Shown here: positions 1-34,430 of the stretch, piece by piece | How the letters are laid out: the number at the start of each line of letters is the position of its first letter | Position numbering within the stretch: the first letter of the stretch is position 1 | DNA from: Desulforamulus putei DSM 12395 | Lineage (GTDB): Bacteria > Bacillota > Desulfotomaculia > Desulfotomaculales > Desulfotomaculaceae | NCBI RefSeq assembly: GCF_900129195.1 | Contig: NZ_FQUY01000025.1 | Location: 1 to 34,430 of the forward strand | Direction of reading: 5' to 3' | Length of the DNA stretch: 34,430 nt | Made by a program: the position numbers and the translations under genes | Notes under the pieces: model-generated | Databases searched by the model: none | The model's input: the letters and a program-made list of their open reading frames with translations, nothing else | What the model was told of the DNA's origin: nothing

Positions 1-186
1 CTGGCCGGGGCTAAACATGATGTTTTTAGTGATGTTGCGCTGGGGGCTATTGCTTCCCACTCCCGTGGCTGGCCTCGCTTGGTTAATAATTTAGCTACCC
101 ATTGCCTGTTGTGTGGTTACCAGGCCAAGAAGGAGTTGATTGACGAGGAAGTTGTTCGCCTGGCGATCCAGGAAATGGGGTTGTAG
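1..186 (+). CDS. ExeA/TniB-like AAA ATPase of an insertion element, C-terminal end (partial)
   Basis: The frame is open from the window edge to the TAG at 184-186 and gives 61 residues including GAIASHSRGWPRLVNNLA. This sensor-2/lid-like segment (SxGxPRxxNxLA) is typical of ExeA/TniB-type AAA ATPases, which act with DDE transposases in target selection. The start and the Walker motifs lie outside the window. A terminator follows at once and the element end lies 78 bp further on, so this is probably the last gene of a transposase-ATPase element. It belongs to the insertion element, not to the phage, whose own MuB is at 1281. The assignment rests only on this C-terminal motif. Confidence 0.6.
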   Translation: MAGAKHDVFSDVALGAIASHSRGWPRLVNNLATHCLLCGYQAKKELIDEEVVRLAIQEMGL

Positions 187-196
187 TTATCCCGTT

Positions 197-225
197 CGGT
201 CACACCTTTGTGTGGCCGTTTTTTT
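197..225 (+). terminator. Rho-independent terminator after the element ATPase
   Basis: CGGTCACAC (197-205) pairs with GTGTGGCCG (210-218), with one G-T pair and a CTTT loop, followed by seven T residues (219-225). It starts 11 bp after the ATPase stop and should end transcription of the insertion element before it enters the phage early operon. Confidence 0.85.
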
Positions 226-263
226 GCCATATTAGCATGATATTGTGAAAAAGGATATTACCA

Positions 264-358
264 ATAACCAAATTTATTTGCAAGATTATCATATTATGGC
301 GACATTTTATGCCATTTGTTTGTGAAAAACAGGTGCAGTTTTAATTTGCAAATTCACA
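264..358 (+). repeat. Insertion-element end, left copy (95 bp)
   Basis: These 95 bp are the exact reverse complement of 34336-34430. Identity stops at 358, where the sequence passes into transposase coding DNA (RSIGIQDEI), so 358 is the element boundary. Read from outside in, the end begins TGTGAATTTGCAAATT, and the terminal TG/CA is typical of Mu/Tn7-type DDE elements. Related AT-rich motifs (ATTTATTTGCAAG, ATTTGTTTGTGAA, AATTTGCAAATTC) recur inside and may be transposase-binding sites. The region 187-263 holds only the terminator and AT-rich spacer. Confidence 0.85.
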
Positions 359-1255
359 TTTTACCGGAGCATAGGGATTCAGGACGAAATAAACAGCCTG
401 CCGTTTCAGCCTTGGTCAAAGGCGCAGATTGAGCGGTTCTTCGGGACGATATGCTCAAGCTTCACCAAATGGATGTTCTCCTACACCGGCACTCTGACCG
501 GCTCCAAGACGGCAGCCAAAATCAAGAAGGACATCCCTAAGATGTTGGAGCGTGGGGAGCTCCTCACGATGGAAGAGTTTTACGAGCTTTGGACAAAGTG
601 GTTGAACGAAGTTTACCACAAACGTGAACACTCCGGCCTCAAGCGTCAGGGTGAGAAGTACACGGTTCCGATAGAGCTCTTCATGAAGGCTGAGGACAAG
701 TATTATAAGCCTGCTCCCCCGAAGTCATACGCTTCAATCCTGATGATGAAGGCTGAGAGGGTCACGGTTTACAACATCGGAATCAGGAAATTCGGTTACG
801 AGTACAGGGCTCAGGAGCTTTGCAACTACCACGGGGAAAAGGTTGATATCAAGTATGACCCTGAAGACGTGACAAGGCTCTACGTCTACACCAGGGAAGG
901 CAAGAAGATTTGTGAAGCGGTATCTCAGGAGCTCTTACTGATAGCTCCAAGGGTCTCCCAAAAGGCCCTTGAGGAACACAAGAAAATGCAGAATACGCAG
1001 CTTAGAAACGATAAGGAACTCCTTGAGGAGTTCAGAACGCCGTATGAGCAAAGGGGCAACGTTCCGGGTGATGTTGTCGGGGCTCTTGATTTGATGGTCA
1101 AGGGTAAGGGCGACAAGGTGGTTGCTCTCCCGCAGGACAAGCAGTTTGCCTCAGAACTCAGAGATAAAAAGAACAGGCAGAAACAAGACGCTGAAGACGA
1201 GTTCTTCAGCAGGAAGGCCCAGGATGCGCTCTCTAAGCTGAGGCAGCTTGGGTAA
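359..1255 (+). pseudogene. Mu-like phage transposase (MuA family), C-terminal fragment cut by an insertion element
   Basis: The frame is open across the element junction to TAA at 1253-1255. From about 365 it reads RSIGIQDEI, NSLPFQPWSKAQIERFFGTI and YHKREHSGL. These are the end of an rve/DDE catalytic domain, with the third acidic residue in QIERFF, followed by a Mu-transposase C-terminal barrel and a charged tail. The N-terminal DNA-binding domains and the first two catalytic aspartates are missing. An ATG at 473 could start a 260-residue product, but it lies after the catalytic glutamate and has no good ribosome site. MuA normally cuts and joins phage ends in integration and replicative transposition, so this copy cannot do so unless it is supplied in trans. 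The missing 5' part presumably lies beyond the element, upstream of the window. Confidence 0.85.
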
Positions 1256-5333: not shown

Positions 5334-6710
5334 ATGACGACAATCGAAAAAAAGCTTATAAAATACAATTTTTCAACCGGCAATGACCCGAAGTATATCG
5401 TCGTTCATGATACAGGCAATCCCGGCAAGGGTGCGGATGCTGACGCTCACTACAGGTATTTTAACGGCGGCAACCGGAATGCCTCGGCCCATTACTTTGT
5501 AGATGACCATTCAATCATCCAAACTGTGGAGGATGCAAATGCCTCCTGGCATTGCGGGGATGGCAAAGGCCAGTACGGCATCACTAACTATAACTCCATA
5601 GGGATTGAGATTTGCATCAACAGTGACGGGGATTATAACAAGGCCGTCCAAAATGCTATTGAGCTTGTCAAGTTCCTGATGAAGAAGCATAACATCCCCT
5701 TGGACAAGGTTGTAAGGCACTACGACGCAAGCCGGAAGAATTGTCCGGGGACTATGAGCTCAAACAACTGGGAGAAATGGAATTGGTTTAAGAGCCAGCT
5801 TAAAGAGGAGGCCGCTCCTGCCGCGGGGCTCTACAGGGTGAGAAAGTCTTGGGATGACGCAAAGTCTCAGGTCGGGGCCTACAAAGTCCTCGAGAACGCC
5901 AAGGCAGAATGTGACAAGAATCCAGGATACAGCGTCTTTGACGAAAAAGGAAACAAGGTCTATCCCCTTCCCTTCTCCGCTCCTGAGCAGCCGGGAGAGA
6001 CGCAGCCGGAGCAACAGCTCACTCTCATCATGGGCAAGACGGAAGCAACGGTGGCTCAGATGGTCTCCTATGCTCTGAAGAGCAATGCAAACCCTCTCCT
6101 GCCGAACTGCACAATTGAAGAGCTTGCACAGGTATTCATTGAGGAGGCAGAGGTTGAAGGCGTGAGGGCTGACGTTGCTTGGGCTCAGGCCCTGAAAGAA
6201 ACAGGGTATTTCAAATATGGCGGTATCGTCCTTCCTGAGCAGAACAATTACAGCGGCATCGGAGCCCTCAACAACAACTCAAAGGGTGAGGCAGCCGTCT
6301 TTGAAAGCCCACGGATAGGGGCAAGGGCGCAAATACAACACCTGAAAGCCTACGCAAGCACTGAGGCCCTTAAGCAGCCGTGTGTTGACCCACGGTTCCA
6401 CCTAGTCAAGAGAGGCTCTGCAAAATATGTTGAGTGGCTCGGATACGAGGACAATCCCAACGGTACGGGCTGGGCCTGGCCCGGCAAGGGATACGGTTAC
6501 AGCATCGTCGGCATCCTGAAAGGAATCCTCCAGGAACCGAAGGAAAGCAAAGAGGCAACGGATACCGGCAATGTCCCCCAGTGGCAGAAGGACGCTTTCA
6601 AGAAGCTTGTCGAGAAGAAGATTATCAACTCCCCTGAGTTTTGGGAGGGCAGGCTCGGGGAGACAATTACCATCGGTGAGGTCATGGGTATCCTGGCGAA
6701 TACGCTTTAA
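5334..6710 (+). CDS. Endolysin: N-acetylmuramoyl-L-alanine amidase plus glucosaminidase-like domain
   Basis: A peptidoglycan hydrolase of 458 aa with at least two enzyme domains. Residues about 17-145 form an Amidase_2 domain with zinc ligands H25 (YIVVHDTG), H129 (VVRHYDASR) and C137 (NCPG). Residues about 165-205 (YRVRKSWDDAKSQVGAYKV and following) look like a short SPOR-like cell-wall binding unit. Residues about 255-400 resemble a GH73 glucosaminidase, with ALKETGYFKYGG carrying the likely catalytic Glu and NNYSGIGAL. The C-terminus has a small helical repeat (WQKDAFKKLVEKKIINSPEFW). There is no signal peptide, so export would need the holin at 7207. It lies before mor, in the early or middle transcript. 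Confidence 0.88.
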   Translation: MTTIEKKLIKYNFSTGNDPKYIVVHDTGNPGKGADADAHYRYFNGGNRNASAHYFVDDHSIIQTVEDANASWHCGDGKGQYGITNYNSIGIEICINSDGDYNKAVQNAIELVKFLMKKHNIPLDKVVRHYDASRKNCPGTMSSNNWEKWNWFKSQLKEEAAPAAGLYRVRKSWDDAKSQVGAYKVLENAKAECDKNPGYSVFDEKGNKVYPLPFSAPEQPGETQPEQQLTLIMGKTEATVAQMVSYALKSNANPLLPNCTIEELAQVFIEEAEVEGVRADVAWAQALKETGYFKYGGIVLPEQNNYSGIGALNNNSKGEAAVFESPRIGARAQIQHLKAYASTEALKQPCVDPRFHLVKRGSAKYVEWLGYEDNPNGTGWAWPGKGYGYSIVGILKGILQEPKESKEATDTGNVPQWQKDAFKKLVEKKIINSPEFWEGRLGETITIGEVMGILANTL

Positions 6711-26264: not shown

Positions 26265-26573
26265 ATGAAGACATTAACTGCAACGGGTATTACCAAACAG
26301 CTCACAAGGCTGAAAGACTCATTGTCACATGCAACCTATCTGCTGAACGGGCAGCAAAGACAGACTGATATCTTTAAAACGGAGATAAACCAGGACTTTA
26401 TAAGGATATTCGTCTACCTGGATGACACTGTTTCGGGAACGGTCAGCAATATCAGTTTAGTTGACAGGGACGGTGATGTGGTGGCTCTTGCAACCAGAGA
26501 GTTTATAAAACCTCAATCCAAAGGGCTGTATTCGGTCTTTGCTTATAAATTCGTGGAAGTGGAGGTGAGCTAA
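26265..26573 (+). CDS. Small tail-associated protein, unknown function
   Basis: A 102-residue protein behind AAAGGAGG. It starts with a helical segment (ITKQLTRLKDSLSHATYLLNG) and continues as strands (FIRIFVYLDDTVSGTVSNIS, LVDRDGDVVALATREFI). Similar proteins are common between the gpI-like gene and fibres in Firmicute phages. A fibre-assembly or baseplate-decoration role is inferred. Confidence 0.65.
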   Translation: MKTLTATGITKQLTRLKDSLSHATYLLNGQQRQTDIFKTEINQDFIRIFVYLDDTVSGTVSNISLVDRDGDVVALATREFIKPQSKGLYSVFAYKFVEVEVS

Positions 26574-26574
26574 A

Positions 26575-27021
26575 ATGAAGCCTTACAATCTCAAGCAATG
26601 GCAAGACCATATTGTTGACGAACTAACGGGAGAGGTGATTCAGGAAGGGACTCCCGTCAGTGCGACAAACTTAAACAATATGGAGACCGGTATTCTTGGA
26701 GCTGACGGTTTTGCCTCGGTTCTGATTCAACAGGCAATGCAGTCCAAAAGAAGCATAGCTGACCTGGAAGGAGAGCTTGTGGAAGTGTCATTGAGCAATA
26801 CAATGAGCTATCCCTTTAACAACTCAGAGACAACCGTTGCCCTCCAAAAGGCAAGGGACACCTTGAATTACAGGGTGCTCACTGAGGTTCTAAGCTCCAA
26901 CGGGTTTGTCGGAGACATTGAGGTGTACGACAAGGCCCTGAACGGCTTTAAAATCCGGTACACAGGCAGCGCAACGAGTGCAACAATCAAATGTTTTATC
27001 CAAGGGGGTATGTTTCAATAA
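26575..27021 (+). CDS. Tail fibre-associated protein, phage structural
   Basis: A 148-residue protein starting one base after the previous stop. The N-terminus (QWQDHIVDELTGEVIQEGTPVSATNLNNME) is a recurring start of Firmicute tail appendage proteins (GTxxSAtNLNxmE). The rest is strand-rich. It is probably a short fibre or an adaptor between baseplate and the variable tip protein. Confidence 0.7.
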   Translation: MKPYNLKQWQDHIVDELTGEVIQEGTPVSATNLNNMETGILGADGFASVLIQQAMQSKRSIADLEGELVEVSLSNTMSYPFNNSETTVALQKARDTLNYRVLTEVLSSNGFVGDIEVYDKALNGFKIRYTGSATSATIKCFIQGGMFQ

Positions 27022-27191
27022 TGGCGAACGTGATAATTAAGAGCAGCGAGAGGCAAGAAAGGACGAACAGGGTCTTGAGGGACTTTGGACACAACAGCTC
27101 AACGGCCAACAAGCAAACAAGGGAATACGCTGAGTGCATTGCTCAGAGGAGTCATGAAGTGATTAAGAAAGCGGAGGGATTGAAAAGATGA
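27021..27191 (+). CDS. Very small phage protein, unknown function
   Basis: A 56-residue basic, helical protein from ATG 27021, overlapping the previous stop (TAATG), with AAGGGGGT at 27002-27009. It is rich in Arg and Ser (SERQERTNRVLRDFGHNSST). Position suggests a chaperone or adaptor for the tail tip; nothing more can be read. Confidence 0.55.
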   Translation: MANVIIKSSERQERTNRVLRDFGHNSSTANKQTREYAECIAQRSHEVIKKAEGLKR

Positions 27192-27535
27192 ACGGTCAGG
27201 TAAATATCGTTGAAAAGAACGAAGGGCCAAAAATCAACATCGTGCAGGACGGGACAAAGGTCATCCTGGATGAAATCATGACCCTTGACCTTGAGAAGTA
27301 CGAAAGGGACTTTGATGTTCATATTAACATTTGCACTAATGAGTTCGGGTTCCTGACCTTCGGGCTCAATAAATGGTATGTTGCACAGATAGACATACCG
27401 GCAAGGGCATACGATACCGTCATTGACGGTGAGGATGAGAATGGCAATCCAATGGAAAAGCAATTCCCCATCCCATTTGATATGGGCAAGGTGACAATAA
27501 CATTATGGGCTAAAGGAGGAGCAACCAATGAGTAA
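27188..27535 (+). CDS. Small tail-tip region protein, unknown function
   Basis: A 115-residue acidic, strand-rich protein (EFGFLTFGLNKWYVAQIDIPARAY). It overlaps the DGR target start by 8 bp, so the two are translated together. It may be a chaperone or adaptor for the variable receptor-binding protein. No family was recognised. Confidence 0.6.
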   Translation: MNGQVNIVEKNEGPKINIVQDGTKVILDEIMTLDLEKYERDFDVHINICTNEFGFLTFGLNKWYVAQIDIPARAYDTVIDGEDENGNPMEKQFPIPFDMGKVTITLWAKGGATNE

Positions 27536-28631
27536 TTTTGATGACATGAAATTAGCGGTTGAAGCGTTGTCGGGCGGGAAAAATACGGTCTTGTTTGATG
27601 ATATGGGGCTCCCTTCAATCATGGTGAGGATACCGCTATTCAAAAGCATTGACGTGATGACCGGTGGAGAAGATGCGGCTCATCCAATGTTTGTTGTGAA
27701 TGGAGTTCAGAAATCTGAAGTGATGGTCTCCAAGTATCAAAATATTGTCATGTATGACCGAGCCTACAGCCTGCCCTTTAAAGACCCGAAAACAAGCGTG
27801 AACTTCGATACAGTAAAAGCCTACTGTGAAAATAAGGGCTTAGGATGGCATCTGATGACGAATGCTGAATGGGCCGGGATTGCGCTTTGGTGTAAGAAAA
27901 ACGGCTTTATGCCCAGGGGGAACAATAACTATGGAGCTGACCATTCCGCTCCCCATGAGAAGGGTGTGGGAACCTACTTTGACAGTGGAGCCGGGAAGAC
28001 CGGCAGGGTTGCAACCGGAAGTGGCCCGGCAAGTTGGGCTCACGACAACACCAACGAGGGCATATTTGACCTCAACGGCAACGTGTGGGAATGGGTCGGA
28101 GGCTTGAGGCTTAACAACGGGGAGATACAAATTATCCCTAACAACGATGCCGCTGCTGCTGTTGACCAAACGGCGACAAGTGCGTTGTGGAAGGCCATGT
28201 TGCAGGACGGAAGCCTTGTGGCCCCCGGCACGGCCAACACTCTAAAGGTGGACAATACCACGGCAGGCGATGCAACCGCTACCTCTCATGATGTTGGTGG
28301 AGACCCGAGGATAAACACGGCGGTTGAAAACCAGATGTATACACCGGGAGGCCAGTATGATTACGGATATTCATACACAACCTTCGAAACACTGGCTGCT
28401 GAAGCAGGAGTAACAATCCCGAATCTCCTCAAAGCTTTAGGAATGTTTCCGATTGATGCGGCGCATGGGGCAGACGGTTTTTATGCTCGTAACTATGGAG
28501 AAAGGCTCCCGATTCGTGGCGGCGCTTGGGGTGGCACTTCCCATGCGGGCGTGTTCCGCGTCGACCTGTACTACTCTCGTGCGCGCGTCAGTGCGAATAT
28601 CGGTTTCCGCTCCGCTTTTGTTACTCTGTAA
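27528..28631 (+). CDS. DGR variable target: FGE-sulfatase/C-type-lectin-fold tail tip protein
   Basis: A 367-residue protein behind AAAGGAGGAG. The C-terminal two thirds show formylglycine-generating-enzyme-type motifs: WHLMTNAEWAGIALWCKKNG, GIFDLNGNVWEWVGGL and the end RGGAWGGTSHAGVFR with IGFRSAF. The fold is used here as a scaffold; a true FGE active site is not expected. The last 42 residues are the variable repeat. Diversified positions are A333, G336, H339, R344, D346, Y348, Y349, R353 and A356, on the ligand-facing end of this fold in known DGR targets. It follows the baseplate and fibre genes, where Mu has its S fibre, so it is most likely the receptor-binding tip. It has no signal peptide. 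Confidence 0.9.
   Translation: MSNFDDMKLAVEALSGGKNTVLFDDMGLPSIMVRIPLFKSIDVMTGGEDAAHPMFVVNGVQKSEVMVSKYQNIVMYDRAYSLPFKDPKTSVNFDTVKAYCENKGLGWHLMTNAEWAGIALWCKKNGFMPRGNNNYGADHSAPHEKGVGTYFDSGAGKTGRVATGSGPASWAHDNTNEGIFDLNGNVWEWVGGLRLNNGEIQIIPNNDAAAAVDQTATSALWKAMLQDGSLVAPGTANTLKVDNTTAGDATATSHDVGGDPRINTAVENQMYTPGGQYDYGYSYTTFETLAAEAGVTIPNLLKALGMFPIDAAHGADGFYARNYGERLPIRGGAWGGTSHAGVFRVDLYYSRARVSANIGFRSAFVTL
28505..28616 (+). repeat. DGR variable repeat (VR)
   Basis: These 112 bp match 29082-29193 with 13 differences and no gaps. Every difference lies opposite an A in the template (7 to G, 4 to C, 2 to T). The last 36 bp of the match, from 28581, hold three of these changes, and the final GGTTTCCGCTCCGCT is unchanged, as expected for the initiation (IMH) end. 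Divergence begins right after 28616. Confidence 0.95.
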
Positions 28632-28652
28632 TCTGTTTTCTGAATATCTGTC

Positions 28653-28674
28653 GGGGAGAGCGATAGCTCTCCCC
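28653..28674 (+). promoter_or_regulatory. DGR hairpin/cruciform downstream of VR
   Basis: GGGGAGAGC (28653-28661) and GCTCTCCCC (28666-28674) form a perfect 9-bp GC-rich stem with the 4-nt loop GATA, 36 bp after VR. Known DGRs of Bordetella phage type need such a hairpin for efficient target recognition. It could also act as a weak terminator, but no T run follows. Confidence 0.85.
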
Positions 28675-28702
28675 CCACCCTGAAGTAAGAGAGGAGTTTT
28701 AG

Positions 28703-29044
28703 ATGGAGCAATTAAAGATATACCAAAAAATCTATGACATGATAGTCTACGGAAACAACTGCCTACTTCAGTTTCCCAGGTCAGAAAGATATGCGCTTGC
28801 AACGGAGATTAAGAAAAGCATGTATACGCTGCTGAGGTTGGCGATAGTGGCAAACAAGAAGTATTATAAAAAGACAACTCTTCAGGAAATGGATGTTGAG
28901 CTGGAAACATTAAAAACCTTTATAAGGGTTGCGGCAGACCCTAAATTCAAATACTTGGGACTGAAGCAATATGAAAATTGGAGCAAGATGCTCAGCGAAA
29001 TCGGGCGCATGTTGGGAGGATGGATGAAGGCAGTAAAGCAGTAA
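28703..29044 (+). CDS. avd: DGR accessory variability determinant (Avd)
   Basis: A 113-residue basic helical protein between VR and TR, behind AGAGGAG. It has the four-helix pattern of Avd/S23-type proteins: IYQKIYDMIVYGNNCLLQFP with RSERYALATEIKKSMYTLL, LLRLAIVANKKYYKKTTLQE, and LETLKTFIRVAADPKFKYL. Avd forms a barrel pentamer that binds the RT and template RNA, needed for cDNA priming. Order (target, avd, TR, RT) is that of the Bordetella phage DGR. Confidence 0.93.
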   Translation: MEQLKIYQKIYDMIVYGNNCLLQFPRSERYALATEIKKSMYTLLRLAIVANKKYYKKTTLQEMDVELETLKTFIRVAADPKFKYLGLKQYENWSKMLSEIGRMLGGWMKAVKQ

Positions 29045-29081
29045 ATAAATAAACAAAAACTATGGGGGATGAGTCTATTGA

Positions 29082-29193
29082 GCTCCCGATTCGTGGCGGC
29101 AATTGGGGTAACACTTCCAATGCGGGCGTGTTCAACGTCAACCTGAACAACTCTCGTGCGAACGTCAGTACGAATATCGGTTTCCGCTCCGCT
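29082..29193 (+). ncRNA. DGR template repeat (TR) and its RNA region
   Basis: The 112-bp non-coding donor copy holds 23 adenines, mostly in AAC/AAT codon positions aligned with the variable codons of the target. Read in the VR frame it would give Asn at eight of the nine variable sites and Thr at the ninth. Transcription from upstream should yield an RNA spanning TR and the spacer to the RT, which is reverse transcribed with errors at A. The gap from 29045 to 29315 holds only TR and the spacer. Confidence 0.95.
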
Positions 29194-29212
29194 CTGCTCT
29201 CATAGTCAATGG

Positions 29213-29234
29213 CTATAACCTCATGGGGTTATAG
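29213..29234 (+). other. Hairpin in the TR-RT spacer
   Basis: CTATAACC (29213-29220) pairs perfectly with GGTTATAG (29227-29234) around a 6-nt loop. It lies 20 bp after TR. In the Bordetella DGR the RNA spacer after TR is bound by RT-Avd and primes cDNA synthesis, so this may be part of that structure. The role is inferred from location. Confidence 0.55.
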
Positions 29235-29315
29235 ATAGCACAGAGAGAACAAAGGGGCTCATTCCCCTGCTGAAAAAGCAAAATATTGAATTGCTATAGA
29301 AGCATCGAGTAAGTA

Positions 29316-30494
29316 ATGAAAGATGCTACATATAGTACTAATAAAAACAAGGGGATGCAAAAATTGTCTCAGAAATTAAAGAACCTTTTTCCGAAAATCA
29401 TTGATTTTGAAAACTTGTACATAGCGGCCCTTGAAGCGAGAAAAGGGAAACGTTTTAGGGATGAAATATTAAAATTTAACAGCCAGCTTGAGGAAAACTT
29501 GATTATTATTCAAAATGAGCTTTTATATAAAACCTATGAAGTAGGCAAATATAGGCAGTTCTTTATACATGACCCTAAAAAGAGATTAATCATGGCACTG
29601 CCTTTCAAAGATAGAGTTGTTCAATGGGCCGTATACAGGATTTTATACCCGCTCTATGACAAACAGTTTATTTTTGATAGTTATGGTTGCAGAGTCGGAA
29701 AAGGCACTCATAAAGCGGCAGACAGGCTTCAATACTGGTTGCGGCAGGTAGACCGCAAGAGTCAAAAATACTATTACCTTAAGCTTGATATCTCGAAGTA
29801 TTTTTATAGAGTCAACCATGCGATATTACTTGACATCCTAAGAAAGAAGATTGTTGATAATGACTTGATGTGGCTGCTTGAGACCATAGTCAACAGTGAG
29901 GACGTGGCCTTTGGGCTCCCTGCCGGAATGGAAGCCGATGACTGCCCGGAAGAAGAGAGACTGTTTGATACAGGGATGCCAATAGGAAACCTTACCTCAC
30001 AACTCTTTGCAAATGTCTACTTAAACGAGCTTGACCAGTATGTAAAGCACAAATTGAGGATACATTACTACATCAGGTATATGGATGATATAATAATCCT
30101 GTCGGATGATAAGAAATACTTACACAAGGTCAAGGAAGACATTGGAACATTCCTGAAATCGGCTCTTGCGCTTGACCTAAACAACAAGACTGCTATCAGA
30201 CCCATATCTTTAGGTGTTGAGTTCGTGGGCTTTAAGATATGGCCTACCCATAGGAAGCTAAAGAAAAAGACTCTGAAGAAGATTAAGAGGAGGGTCAAAA
30301 CGCTTCAAAAAGCCTATGAAAAGGGGTTGATTGCCTTCGATAAGGTGAATGCCTCAATGCAGTCCTATTTCGGCATCATGAGGCACTTCAACAGCTATAA
30401 CTTCAAAACAAAACTCCTGAACGAGTGCGTATTTCAACGGGGCGAAGACCAGCACGTCCAGGAGCGTTATTCTCAAAATAATTGGCAAGAGTAA
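29316..30494 (+). CDS. DGR reverse transcriptase
   Basis: A 392-residue RT. Motif A is YLKLDISKYFYRVNH with catalytic D158. The DGR-type motif 4 is IGNLTSQ at 223-229, whereas group II introns have QGGPLSP-like residues. The active site is YMDD at 255-258 (RYMDDIIIL). A thumb-like basic region follows (LKKKTLKKIKRRVKTLQKAY). There is no maturase or endonuclease domain. No strong ribosome site precedes ATG 29316; ATG 29355 has AAGGGG too close, so the start is uncertain. It copies TR RNA with errors at adenines. Confidence 0.95.
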   Translation: MKDATYSTNKNKGMQKLSQKLKNLFPKIIDFENLYIAALEARKGKRFRDEILKFNSQLEENLIIIQNELLYKTYEVGKYRQFFIHDPKKRLIMALPFKDRVVQWAVYRILYPLYDKQFIFDSYGCRVGKGTHKAADRLQYWLRQVDRKSQKYYYLKLDISKYFYRVNHAILLDILRKKIVDNDLMWLLETIVNSEDVAFGLPAGMEADDCPEEERLFDTGMPIGNLTSQLFANVYLNELDQYVKHKLRIHYYIRYMDDIIILSDDKKYLHKVKEDIGTFLKSALALDLNNKTAIRPISLGVEFVGFKIWPTHRKLKKKTLKKIKRRVKTLQKAYEKGLIAFDKVNASMQSYFGIMRHFNSYNFKTKLLNECVFQRGEDQHVQERYSQNNWQE

Positions 30495-30511: not shown

Positions 30512-30584
30512 AATAGTTCTAAAAACCAGCGTTATTTTTGCCAAAAATCATGAGAATTTTTGCCAAAAATTTTGAGCGGCTACA
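30512..30584 (+). other. Probable right end of the prophage (attR) with 22-bp transposase-site repeats
   Basis: Two copies of ATTTTTGCCAAAAAT, each followed by six bases ending TGAG, start at 30534 and 30556, exactly 22 bp apart. The motif is a dyad around one central C. A degenerate third copy starts at 30512 (11 of 22 bases match). Mu right ends also carry a tandem of 22-bp MuA sites. A CA at 30583-30584 is a plausible terminus, and host coding sequence is open just beyond it. The exact end and the 5-bp duplication cannot be checked because the left end is outside the window. Confidence 0.65.
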
Positions 30585-31454
30585 GAGAGTAGTGGGGAAG
30601 TTGATATTAGGTTATATTCAGTTACCGGTAAATTTTTATCCGACTACCGGGGTGAATGGGGGGACGGACTCAGGGAGGGAGGAACCAGATTCGAATTTGC
30701 CATTCCAATGGAGGATCTCAATGTTTACCCGTCTCAACCGGTAAATTTTTACTTAACGGGTATTGGGAGTGCCGGTGATCGCTTACCTGATTATGGCGAT
30801 ATCATGTGGACACCTTTTCCTGTTATGGTTAAGAACAAATTAAGTCTTACCGCTGTATCAATCTTTTGGATAGCGGTAACAGTATTTTTTTACAGACACC
30901 GTATTTGGCTTTTTTATTATATCTGGGGCGCCGTGGGTTTTACCCTCCTACTGGTTTCCTTTTTGCGCGGTTCTTTTGTGGAATACCAGTTGGAACACCA
31001 GGCGGCCATGTTCCTGCACCAGTTGTTAAACTATTTTGATATAGAAACCGCTGTTTTTGACCGTGCAGTATGTACTCTTTTAATTATGACCGAGGTAGAC
31101 AATAGCTGGACTGTCCTTAATGTTGACATCGAAAACTCAGGTCTCCTGGAAATGTGTATCTTACTGGGGTTGATTATATTCTACCCTCCTTACAAACCTA
31201 CCAGAAAGGCGATATTCTCTCTGGTGGCTGTGGTCTGTGTTTACGCCATTAATCTCTTACGTCTTTTTATCGTTATATTTTCTATTCACTGGTTTGGCCG
31301 CGATATTGCTTCTATTGCCCATTCAATTTTGGGCAGGCTGGTATTCTTTATCCTGATTGTTGCCCTGTACTGGGAGATTTTGACCAAACCATCATTAAAA
31401 ATAGTCCGGGAGAACATCGAAAATGACGCAAGTATTACTGGAAAGGGCACTTGA
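30585..31454 (+). pseudogene. xrtG: Host gene interrupted by the prophage: extracytoplasmic domain fused to XrtG-like exosortase (3' part)
   Basis: The frame is open from the prophage end. Residues before about 30800 (VDIRLYSVTGKFLSDYRGEW, TRFEFAIPMEDLNVYPSQPV, FYLTGIGSAGDRLPDYGDI) resemble a DOMON-like beta-sandwich. After 30825 (MVKNKLSL) come the membrane segments of an XrtG-type exosortase: FWIAVTVFFYRHRIW, ILLGLIIFYPPY, INLLRLFIVIF and IAHSILGRLVFFIL. The expected Arg (31260-31262) and His (31320-31322) are present. The site where I expect Cys (CSG) reads Asn (31134-31136, ENSGLLEMC). Exosortase-family enzymes cleave C-terminal sorting signals at the membrane. No ribosome site precedes the exosortase part, so it is either a true fusion or a decayed gene; ATG 30708 or 30825 could still give a shorter product. 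Confidence 0.65.
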
Positions 31455-34335: not shown

Positions 34336-34430
34336 TGTGAATTTGCAAATTAAAACTGCACCTGTTTTTCACAAACAAATGGCATAAAATGTCGCCATAA
34401 TATGATAATCTTGCAAATAAATTTGGTTAT
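34336..34430 (-). repeat. Insertion-element end, right copy (inverted)
   Basis: It is identical to the reverse complement of 264-358 over all 95 bp up to the window edge, so the true match may go on. The terminal TG is at 34336-34337, and the element body lies beyond the window. It sits 32 bp after the trpB stop. The short stretch 34304-34335 shows nothing notable. Confidence 0.85.

Follow-up and report, generated by a model that had tools for sequence, protein, structure and literature searches.

Does the locus at 27528-30494 of a contig from Desulforamulus putei DSM 12395 hold a complete diversity-generating retroelement (DGR) that has worked, and what marks its variable repeat (VR), and not its template repeat (TR), as the recipient of mutated copies? 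The window, by which we mean the whole stretch of DNA analyzed here, is 34,430 nt long and comprises positions 1-34,430 of the forward strand of contig NZ_FQUY01000025.1 (assembly GCF_900129195.1). We are highly confident that the cassette is a standard DGR of a Mu-like prophage, acting by the mechanism proposed below. Additionally, we found a phased series of CTG trinucleotides, here called the CTG ladder, between the VR and its hairpin, which recurs in related DGRs. The coordinates, gene order and single strand that the initial annotation had given for the target gene, VR, hairpin, avd, TR and reverse transcriptase (RT) were borne out by our re-check and are given below; published work is cited throughout from excerpts of the papers.

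27528..28631, + strand: DGR target gene, 367 amino acids, FGE-type C-type-lectin fold by homology; homologue of TaqVP (PDB 5vf4)
28505..28616, + strand: VR, with 13 differences from TR, every one at a TR adenine
28594..28616, + strand: 3' end of VR, identical to TR in the alignment, with a terminal GC-rich run; putative role like that of the initiation of mutagenic homing (IMH) site, after BPP-1 (PMC3240598, PMC12875486)
28625..28650, + strand: CTG ladder, TCTG boxes at 28625-28628, 28632-28635, 28639-28642 and 28647-28650, spacing 7-7-8 nt
28653..28674, + strand: hairpin/cruciform predicted by folding, 9-bp stem, loop GATA, fitting the GRNA consensus of phage DGRs
28703..29044, + strand: avd, accessory variability determinant, 113 amino acids (Pfam, PHROGs, NCBIfam)
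29082..29193, + strand: TR, with 23 adenines and 9 AAY codons (repeat search, alignment)
29194..29315, + strand: TR-RT spacer, 122 nt, putative template-RNA region by analogy with BPP-1
29316..30494, + strand: DGR RT, 392 amino acids, with PIGNLTSQ and YMDD motifs (Pfam, PHROGs, solved relative)

The cassette and its adenine pattern

The VR and TR formed the top repeat family of the region. Re-derivation of their alignment gave the same 112 bp without gaps that the initial annotation had described, with mismatches at 13 of the 23 TR adenines and at none of the 89 other positions. The chance that 13 randomly falling mismatches would all land on the 23 adenines is 3.4e-11. Eight of the nine AAY codons of the TR were altered in the VR, and one ACG codon was additionally changed; substitutions at the adenines of AAY codons cannot create stops (PMC6328139).

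To these data we added a comparison of five cassettes, namely those of the window, L015, L018, L022 and L019. The mismatches between each VR and its own TR fell at adenines in 13 of 13, 10 of 10, 15 of 15, 11 of 11 and 10 of 11 cases, respectively. The most informative relative was the sister phage L015, which showed 94.8% DNA identity to the window across 6.6 kb. The two TRs differed at 1 of 112 positions, whereas the VRs differed at 14 of the 23 positions templated by a shared adenine and at none of the 88 shared non-adenine positions; the target genes outside the VR differed at 92 of 977 positions. A near-identical TR beside VRs that diverge only at adenine-templated positions therefore indicates a DGR that has worked. 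In all ten pairs of the five cassettes, the number of VR differences at shared non-adenine positions was 0 or 1, and this pattern suggests that the VR has been repeatedly renewed from the TR. Non-adenine mismatches in related copies had been proposed by the initial annotation as evidence that would count against past adenine-specific mutagenic retrohoming; only one of the 60 mismatches was of this kind, and the adenine-only pattern together with the VR comparison of the relatives bore this claim out.

The protein matches were in agreement with this assignment. The target gene matched the FGE-sulfatase domain PF03781 (1.2e-8) and phrog_2889 (1.1e-140), and its residues 5-365 matched PDB 5vf4 (3.1e-77). 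This structure is TaqVP, a variable protein with a C-type-lectin fold from the DGR of a Thermus prophage (PMC6328139), and by sequence homology to it the VR lies at the 3' end of a gene for a protein of that fold. The target protein presumably binds the host surface. Avd was identified by the Pfam family bAvd (1.9e-35, above the cut-off) and by NCBIfam DivGenRetAVD (127 bits; cut-off 80), and its match to the solved relative 4dwl was weak (0.019). The RT, which starts 122 nt past the TR, matched RVT_1 (1.2e-24) and phrog_1423 (5e-144); its best solved relative was 8ub7 (1.5e-52), named 'Reverse transcriptase', which we take to be the BPP-1 RT. The hairpin 3' of the VR had a GC-rich 9-bp stem, and the 59-nt stretch around it folded at z = -3.8, with none of 200 shuffles being equally stable. 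Its GATA loop conforms to GRNA, the loop consensus of phage DGR hairpins (PMC3240598).

Some observations weigh against this reading of the cassette and its carrier. Occasional non-adenine mismatches were present in relatives, with a count of 1 for the near relatives L019 and L017. Across the 81 loci that had a TR/VR pair, the non-adenine mismatches numbered at most 2 per pair, in a scan that itself demanded at least four times as many adenine mismatches as others. Additionally, as assembled, an insertion sequence (IS) breaks the transposase gene of the carrier, which affects the following two features.

358..1255, + strand: C-terminal part of a MuA-like transposase gene, separated from the N-terminal part by the IS
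1..357, + strand: IS end inside the transposase gene (end position approximate)

The IS end at window 1-357 has an identical copy on contig C46 and an inverted end at 34354-34430. The N-terminal part of the transposase, covering residues 1-391 of a relative's protein, was matched at 90% identity on contig C48 only, where the match gives way to different DNA at the contig end, presumably the distal end of the IS. On the gene of the relative, the two halves share 4 nt, as expected from an insertion with a short duplication. We thus found no intact transposase gene in this genome; as assembled, the IS splits it between contigs C48 and C59, and the prophage can therefore hardly transpose by its own gene. 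A fossil element, active in ancestors and no longer so in this genome because the IS has grounded the prophage, is accordingly conceivable, and the IS end in the gene and the N-terminal part at the end of C48 speak in its favor. We nevertheless consider it rather unlikely, since all genes of the cassette are open and the VR changes are coherent and in frame. DGR action is not known to require transposition.

That the RT instead belongs to a group II intron, a retron or an antiphage system and that the repeat is an unrelated duplication was rejected as wholly improbable: the NCBIfam matches that suggest it (group_II_RT_mat, Drt3a, Drt5 and a retron RT) all score under their cut-offs, 8ub7 at 1.5e-52 stands against 1.3e-20 for a group II RT, and both Avd and the adenine-only mismatches speak for a DGR, with the pattern in the relatives already refuting this alternative.

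Several observations stand beside these results. A second VR was sought in the window's own genome, and only the VR and TR themselves matched. A second RT of the host genome (G000:C20:1531-2463) was 33% identical (E 1.3e-28). In L018, from the Bacillota metagenome-assembled genome (MAG) Ch109, the RT gene is frame-broken at 6423-6550, although its VR differs from the TR at 15 of 23 adenines; either recent decay or an assembly error would account for the break. Both ends of the window's contig (1-357 and about 34337-34430) are ends of one IS in opposite orientations, the left copy lying inside the phage transposase gene.

The CTG ladder behind the VR

The ladder was both discovered and first counted in one RT-retrieved set of 90 loci, from which seven further loci with more distant RTs and no TR/VR pair (L008-L014) had been excluded beforehand. 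Nine loci lacked a TR/VR pair and five were dropped for alignments shorter than 85 nt; the remaining 76 collapsed into 46 non-redundant regions, among which the window was grouped with L015. Chains of at least four CTG at steps of 7 or 8 nt were found 3' of the VR in 33 of the 46 regions, and chains of at least three in 37. Dinucleotide shuffles (100 rounds) gave means of 0 and 0.18, respectively, and the 60-nt stretches surrounding and following the TR end contained a ladder in 0 of 46 regions. When all 64 trinucleotides were compared, CTG scored 37 and the runner-up 11. Spacings of 5-6, 9-10, 10-11 and 11-12 nt gave no chains, while the neighboring spacings that share 7 or 8 gave some: 6-7 yielded 21 of 46 regions with at least three boxes and 2 with four, and 8-9 yielded 10 and 0.

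The base before CTG also followed a pattern. It was T or A in boxes 1, 2 and 4 of 30 of the 33 full ladders, and it was the same base in these three boxes of 29 ladders, against 8.8 expected if the boxes were independent, a count that common ancestry inflates. A 47-row RT tree placed every A-type row in a single 15-row fork (12 A, 3 other; support 95/89) nested among the T-types. Because they are confined to this one fork, all boxes seem to have switched together, once. Pairing of the T or A state of the boxes with the RNA spacer after the TR was checked by eye, and none was seen.

We also retrieved loci by Avd. A search of 299 genomes gave 30 Avd-like loci, of which 22 had no TR/VR pair, one had a spurious 39-nt pair and seven remained. 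Four of the seven were already known (the window, L018, L006 and L019); the three new ones carried two full ladders and one partial ladder.

Viral contigs were then scanned blind for the 7-7-8 pattern with TCTG or ACTG boxes. Matches with at least 1.5 kb downstream were taken as testable (80 TCTG and 87 ACTG, near-copies included), and those with a same-strand match to the RT profile of the clade (E < 1e-10) no more than 4 kb away as RT-positive. RT-positive matches numbered 41 of 80 for TCTG and 41 of 87 for ACTG, together 82 of 167; after removal of the 27 of 167 previously collected sites, the counts were 36 of 75 and 19 of 65, together 55 of 140. A control spacing of 9-9-10, which spans 6 nt more than 7-7-8, gave 0 of 91 among the TCTG matches listed and 0 of 45 for ACTG (0 of 136 together). 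The other 85 of the 167 testable matches had no RT within 4 kb; some of them may be chance matches and some remote VRs. The ladder was followed within 16 nt by a GRNA hairpin in 35 of the 41 RT-positive ACTG matches versus 8 of the 41 RT-positive TCTG matches, and many TCTG-type DGRs therefore have another hairpin or none of the tested type.

Additional VRs within the RT-retrieved loci were not found (0). In five viral records or record pairs, a blind ladder match distant from the RT, or located on a different contig with the same IMG sample number, followed a second VR of that DGR. The adenine mismatches of these VRs numbered 9 (L221), 15 (L280), 15 (L242), 16 (L233) and 11 (L309), with 0, 0, 1, 0 and 0 non-adenine mismatches; L257 was left out of the count as seemingly the same site as L229 (contig end overlap). 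These VRs were picked by the ACTG pattern, so the conservation of their boxes is circular. The VR of L550, about 33 kb from its cassette, was found via the TR only; it showed 11 adenine and 3 non-adenine mismatches in a BLAST alignment that begins at TR position 5, and three of the four boxes follow it in phase, along with a GATA hairpin. Searching four long records with the TR gave one remote VR, one weak TR-like match without a ladder and, in two records, nothing more. The weak match (L556 751-864; 77% over 69 nt) lies at the opposite end of the L036 record, is not followed by a ladder and perhaps belongs to a second DGR.

Among 16 named phage DGRs, those of Mushu and Dulem virus 37 had a full ladder, that of Lagaffe three boxes, and those of VHML and VP585 two. 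TTG or CTT variants of the boxes were read by eye in phiARM81mr, ACA2, ZX4290 and nd12. We saw no ladder in the remaining members of this set (BPP-1, YPCBV-1, ANMV-1, Versailles, Bise, vB_Sb_QDWS and Magia). By eye, four ladder-bearing loci (L029, L030, L033 and L103) had longer hairpin loops with CACCAA and not the GRNA tetraloop; such hairpins perhaps form a second class.

Possible roles of the ladder

In the mechanism that we propose, Avd and the RT would copy the TR portion of an avd-TR-RT transcript while misreading adenines. The invariant GC-rich 3' end of the VR, the phased CTG boxes and the GATA-loop hairpin would then jointly mark the VR, and not the TR, as the recipient. The priming and integration of the cDNA and the role of the hairpin would follow BPP-1 by analogy. 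According to PMC12875486, it is not yet fully understood how mutated cDNA locates and enters the VR, and PMC3240598 describes the VR-hairpin distance as allowing considerable flexibility, from 4 to 34 bp.

On balance, we favor the view that, in a large phage clade, the recipient sites of DGRs carry a third cis element besides the IMH and the hairpin, namely a ladder of four NCTG boxes spaced 7-7-8, 7-8-8 or 7-8-7 between VR and hairpin. This ladder would mark each VR, including those 15-35 kb from the RT, and not the TR; a single trans factor, possibly the complex of Avd and RT, would read its boxes one at a time, and the ladder would help to choose the recipient and the copying direction. It would, in this view, participate in recipient recognition. 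No description of a CTG ladder was found in the open literature searched, including the excerpts of PMC3240598, PMC12875486, PMC6642488, PMC10743442, PMC7290462, PMC4372165 and PMC8144416, a scope that leaves aside figures, subscription papers and preprints; the ladder may already be in print.

Alternatively, the ladder might lack any homing role and be an inherited 3' untranslated region or a simple heptamer repeat. One RT profile retrieved or recognized the ladder loci, so shared descent accounts for part of the counts and of the resemblance between boxes of one ladder; moreover, 7 of the 16 named phage DGRs showed no ladder, and the blind matches without a nearby RT are equally in line with this view. 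Simple repeats are a concern in the host genome itself. A loose ladder pattern matched it 41 times, 40 of them beyond the window, and many of these matches overlap one another within shared arrays. A VR is present at just one of the 41, the window's own site, and most others look like GCTGANN heptamer repeats; loose ladder patterns alone are therefore weak evidence. Against this, the post-TR regions carried no ladder and the shuffles failed to produce one, and the spacer bases vary across the 33 full ladders, in which the CTG columns are fixed by selection of the set. By eye, the second box is preceded by G in 39 of the 40 host matches beyond the window, whereas in the ladders that base is mostly T or A. 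Furthermore, among the three new DGRs retrieved by Avd, two carried full ladders and one a partial ladder, and the VR of L550, found by its TR instead of the ladder, had three of four boxes in phase. We therefore regard the absence of a homing role as improbable. The GCTGANN arrays were seen on contigs C12, C37, C41 and others of the host genome (G000), with about 15 copies on C37.

A still less probable view, which we hold to be very unlikely, is that the ladder is a primase start site, with CTG on the lagging-strand template placing Okazaki primers beside the VR. In line with this view, CTG is the preferred template of the E. coli primase DnaG and accompanies a stem-loop in phage G4, whereas Firmicute primases prefer other trinucleotides. 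By eye, CTG boxes occur in Bacillus and Faecalibacterium phages and TTG boxes in Aeromonas and Pseudoalteromonas phages, which argues against it. In E. coli, homing favors targets in which the strand complementary to the cDNA is the lagging template, a point for this view, although in BPP-1 a change of DnaG had no measured effect, a result that its authors deem inconclusive (PMC12875486).

The carrier prophage and related DGRs

The initial annotation had placed the cassette at the tail-fiber position of a Mu-like prophage, directly after the baseplate genes. The Mu-like carrier was confirmed by a MuA-type transposase and Mu-type head genes (Mu-transpos_C 8.3e-21; Mu-like_gpT 3e-102; Portal_Mu 7.2e-119; Mu F 2.9e-21; Mu-like_Pro 1.7e-82). 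A Firmicute host is indicated indirectly by near relatives in Bacillota and Thermincola ferriacetica MAGs, of the same phylum as the window's genome. The position needed correction: the cassette does follow the tail and baseplate genes, but four small ORFs (open reading frames; 26265-27535) separate these from the target gene. No tail-fiber domain was matched, and the target is C-type-lectin-like along its length by homology. With regard to a contractile tail, Baseplate_J and DUF2586 lie roughly where phage BalMu-1 has its annotated tail sheath (by eye), and no sheath family was matched among the proteins scanned. The end of the prophage comprises the following features.

30521..30584, + strand: phage right end, with 22-nt repeats and terminal CA, common to the window, L015, L018 and L019 before they diverge
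30585..30589, + strand: 5-bp target-site duplication GAGAG, with its left copy on contig C48 (read by eye)

The four phage copies are alike up to ...GGCTACA, which sets the right end at 30584, and run into unrelated DNA beyond it; their different right flanks indicate varied insertion sites. Contig C48 of this genome carries the left end, with GAGAG at both ends and the phage termini TG...CA (by eye). We thus found both a 5-bp target duplication and varied insertion sites, as in Mu-like phages. The host reading frame cut by the prophage continues stop-free into an exosortase-like ORF (window 30585-31454), which scored 99.1 bits with the XrtG model, just below its cut-off of 102.75, and is followed by a TIGR03111 XrtG-associated glycosyltransferase.

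The initial annotation had regarded a Mu-like Firmicute carrier as remarkable. This view was not sustained, as BalMu-1 (NC_030945) has the same cassette in the same place, and Mushu and hankyphage are transposable phages with DGRs. In particular, BalMu-1 is a Mu-like Firmicute phage with target, avd, TR and RT after the tail genes, an SUMF1/FGE-type target, an RT 59% identical over 93% and three phased TCTG boxes. In contrast to the window, its host is Bacillus alcalophilus and holin and endolysin genes follow its RT; the window instead has an amidase gene (5334-6710) early in the phage. The podovirus BPP-1 of Bordetella, the mechanistic archetype, shares avd, TR, RT and a GRNA-loop hairpin 3' of the VR, but its target is Mtd, its hairpin is close to the VR and it has only CCTG and CTTG 7 nt apart, not a full ladder. 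The TaqVP DGR of a Thermus aquaticus prophage is likewise prophage-borne with avd, and its target is homologous over nearly the full length, although its host is of a different phylum (PMC6328139). Two Faecalibacterium phages are similar in part: Mushu is Mu-like and transposable with a DGR, with a Hoc-like protein as its target, and in Lagaffe Avd occurs with an FGE-family target (PMC5883640). Hankyphage is transposable with an active DGR on its tail fiber, in Bacteroides hosts (PMC12135933, PMC6199706). The case of a DGR in a Firmicute Mu-like prophage is already stated by the title, as cited, of Toussaint 2013. Given the BalMu-1 layout and the other transposable-phage DGRs, the DGR of the window is therefore not a new kind; the initial interpretation is partly supported, with its mechanism right and its novelty overstated.

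The window is thus a further instance of the Firmicute Mu-like prophage DGRs, a set known since 2013 by that cited title, and the sister phage L015 provides a clean natural experiment on past activity. The ladder is the part worth following: it is a recurrent, VR-only, phased element in the gap between VR and hairpin, usable as a search tag for remote VRs and open to a small, direct mutational test.

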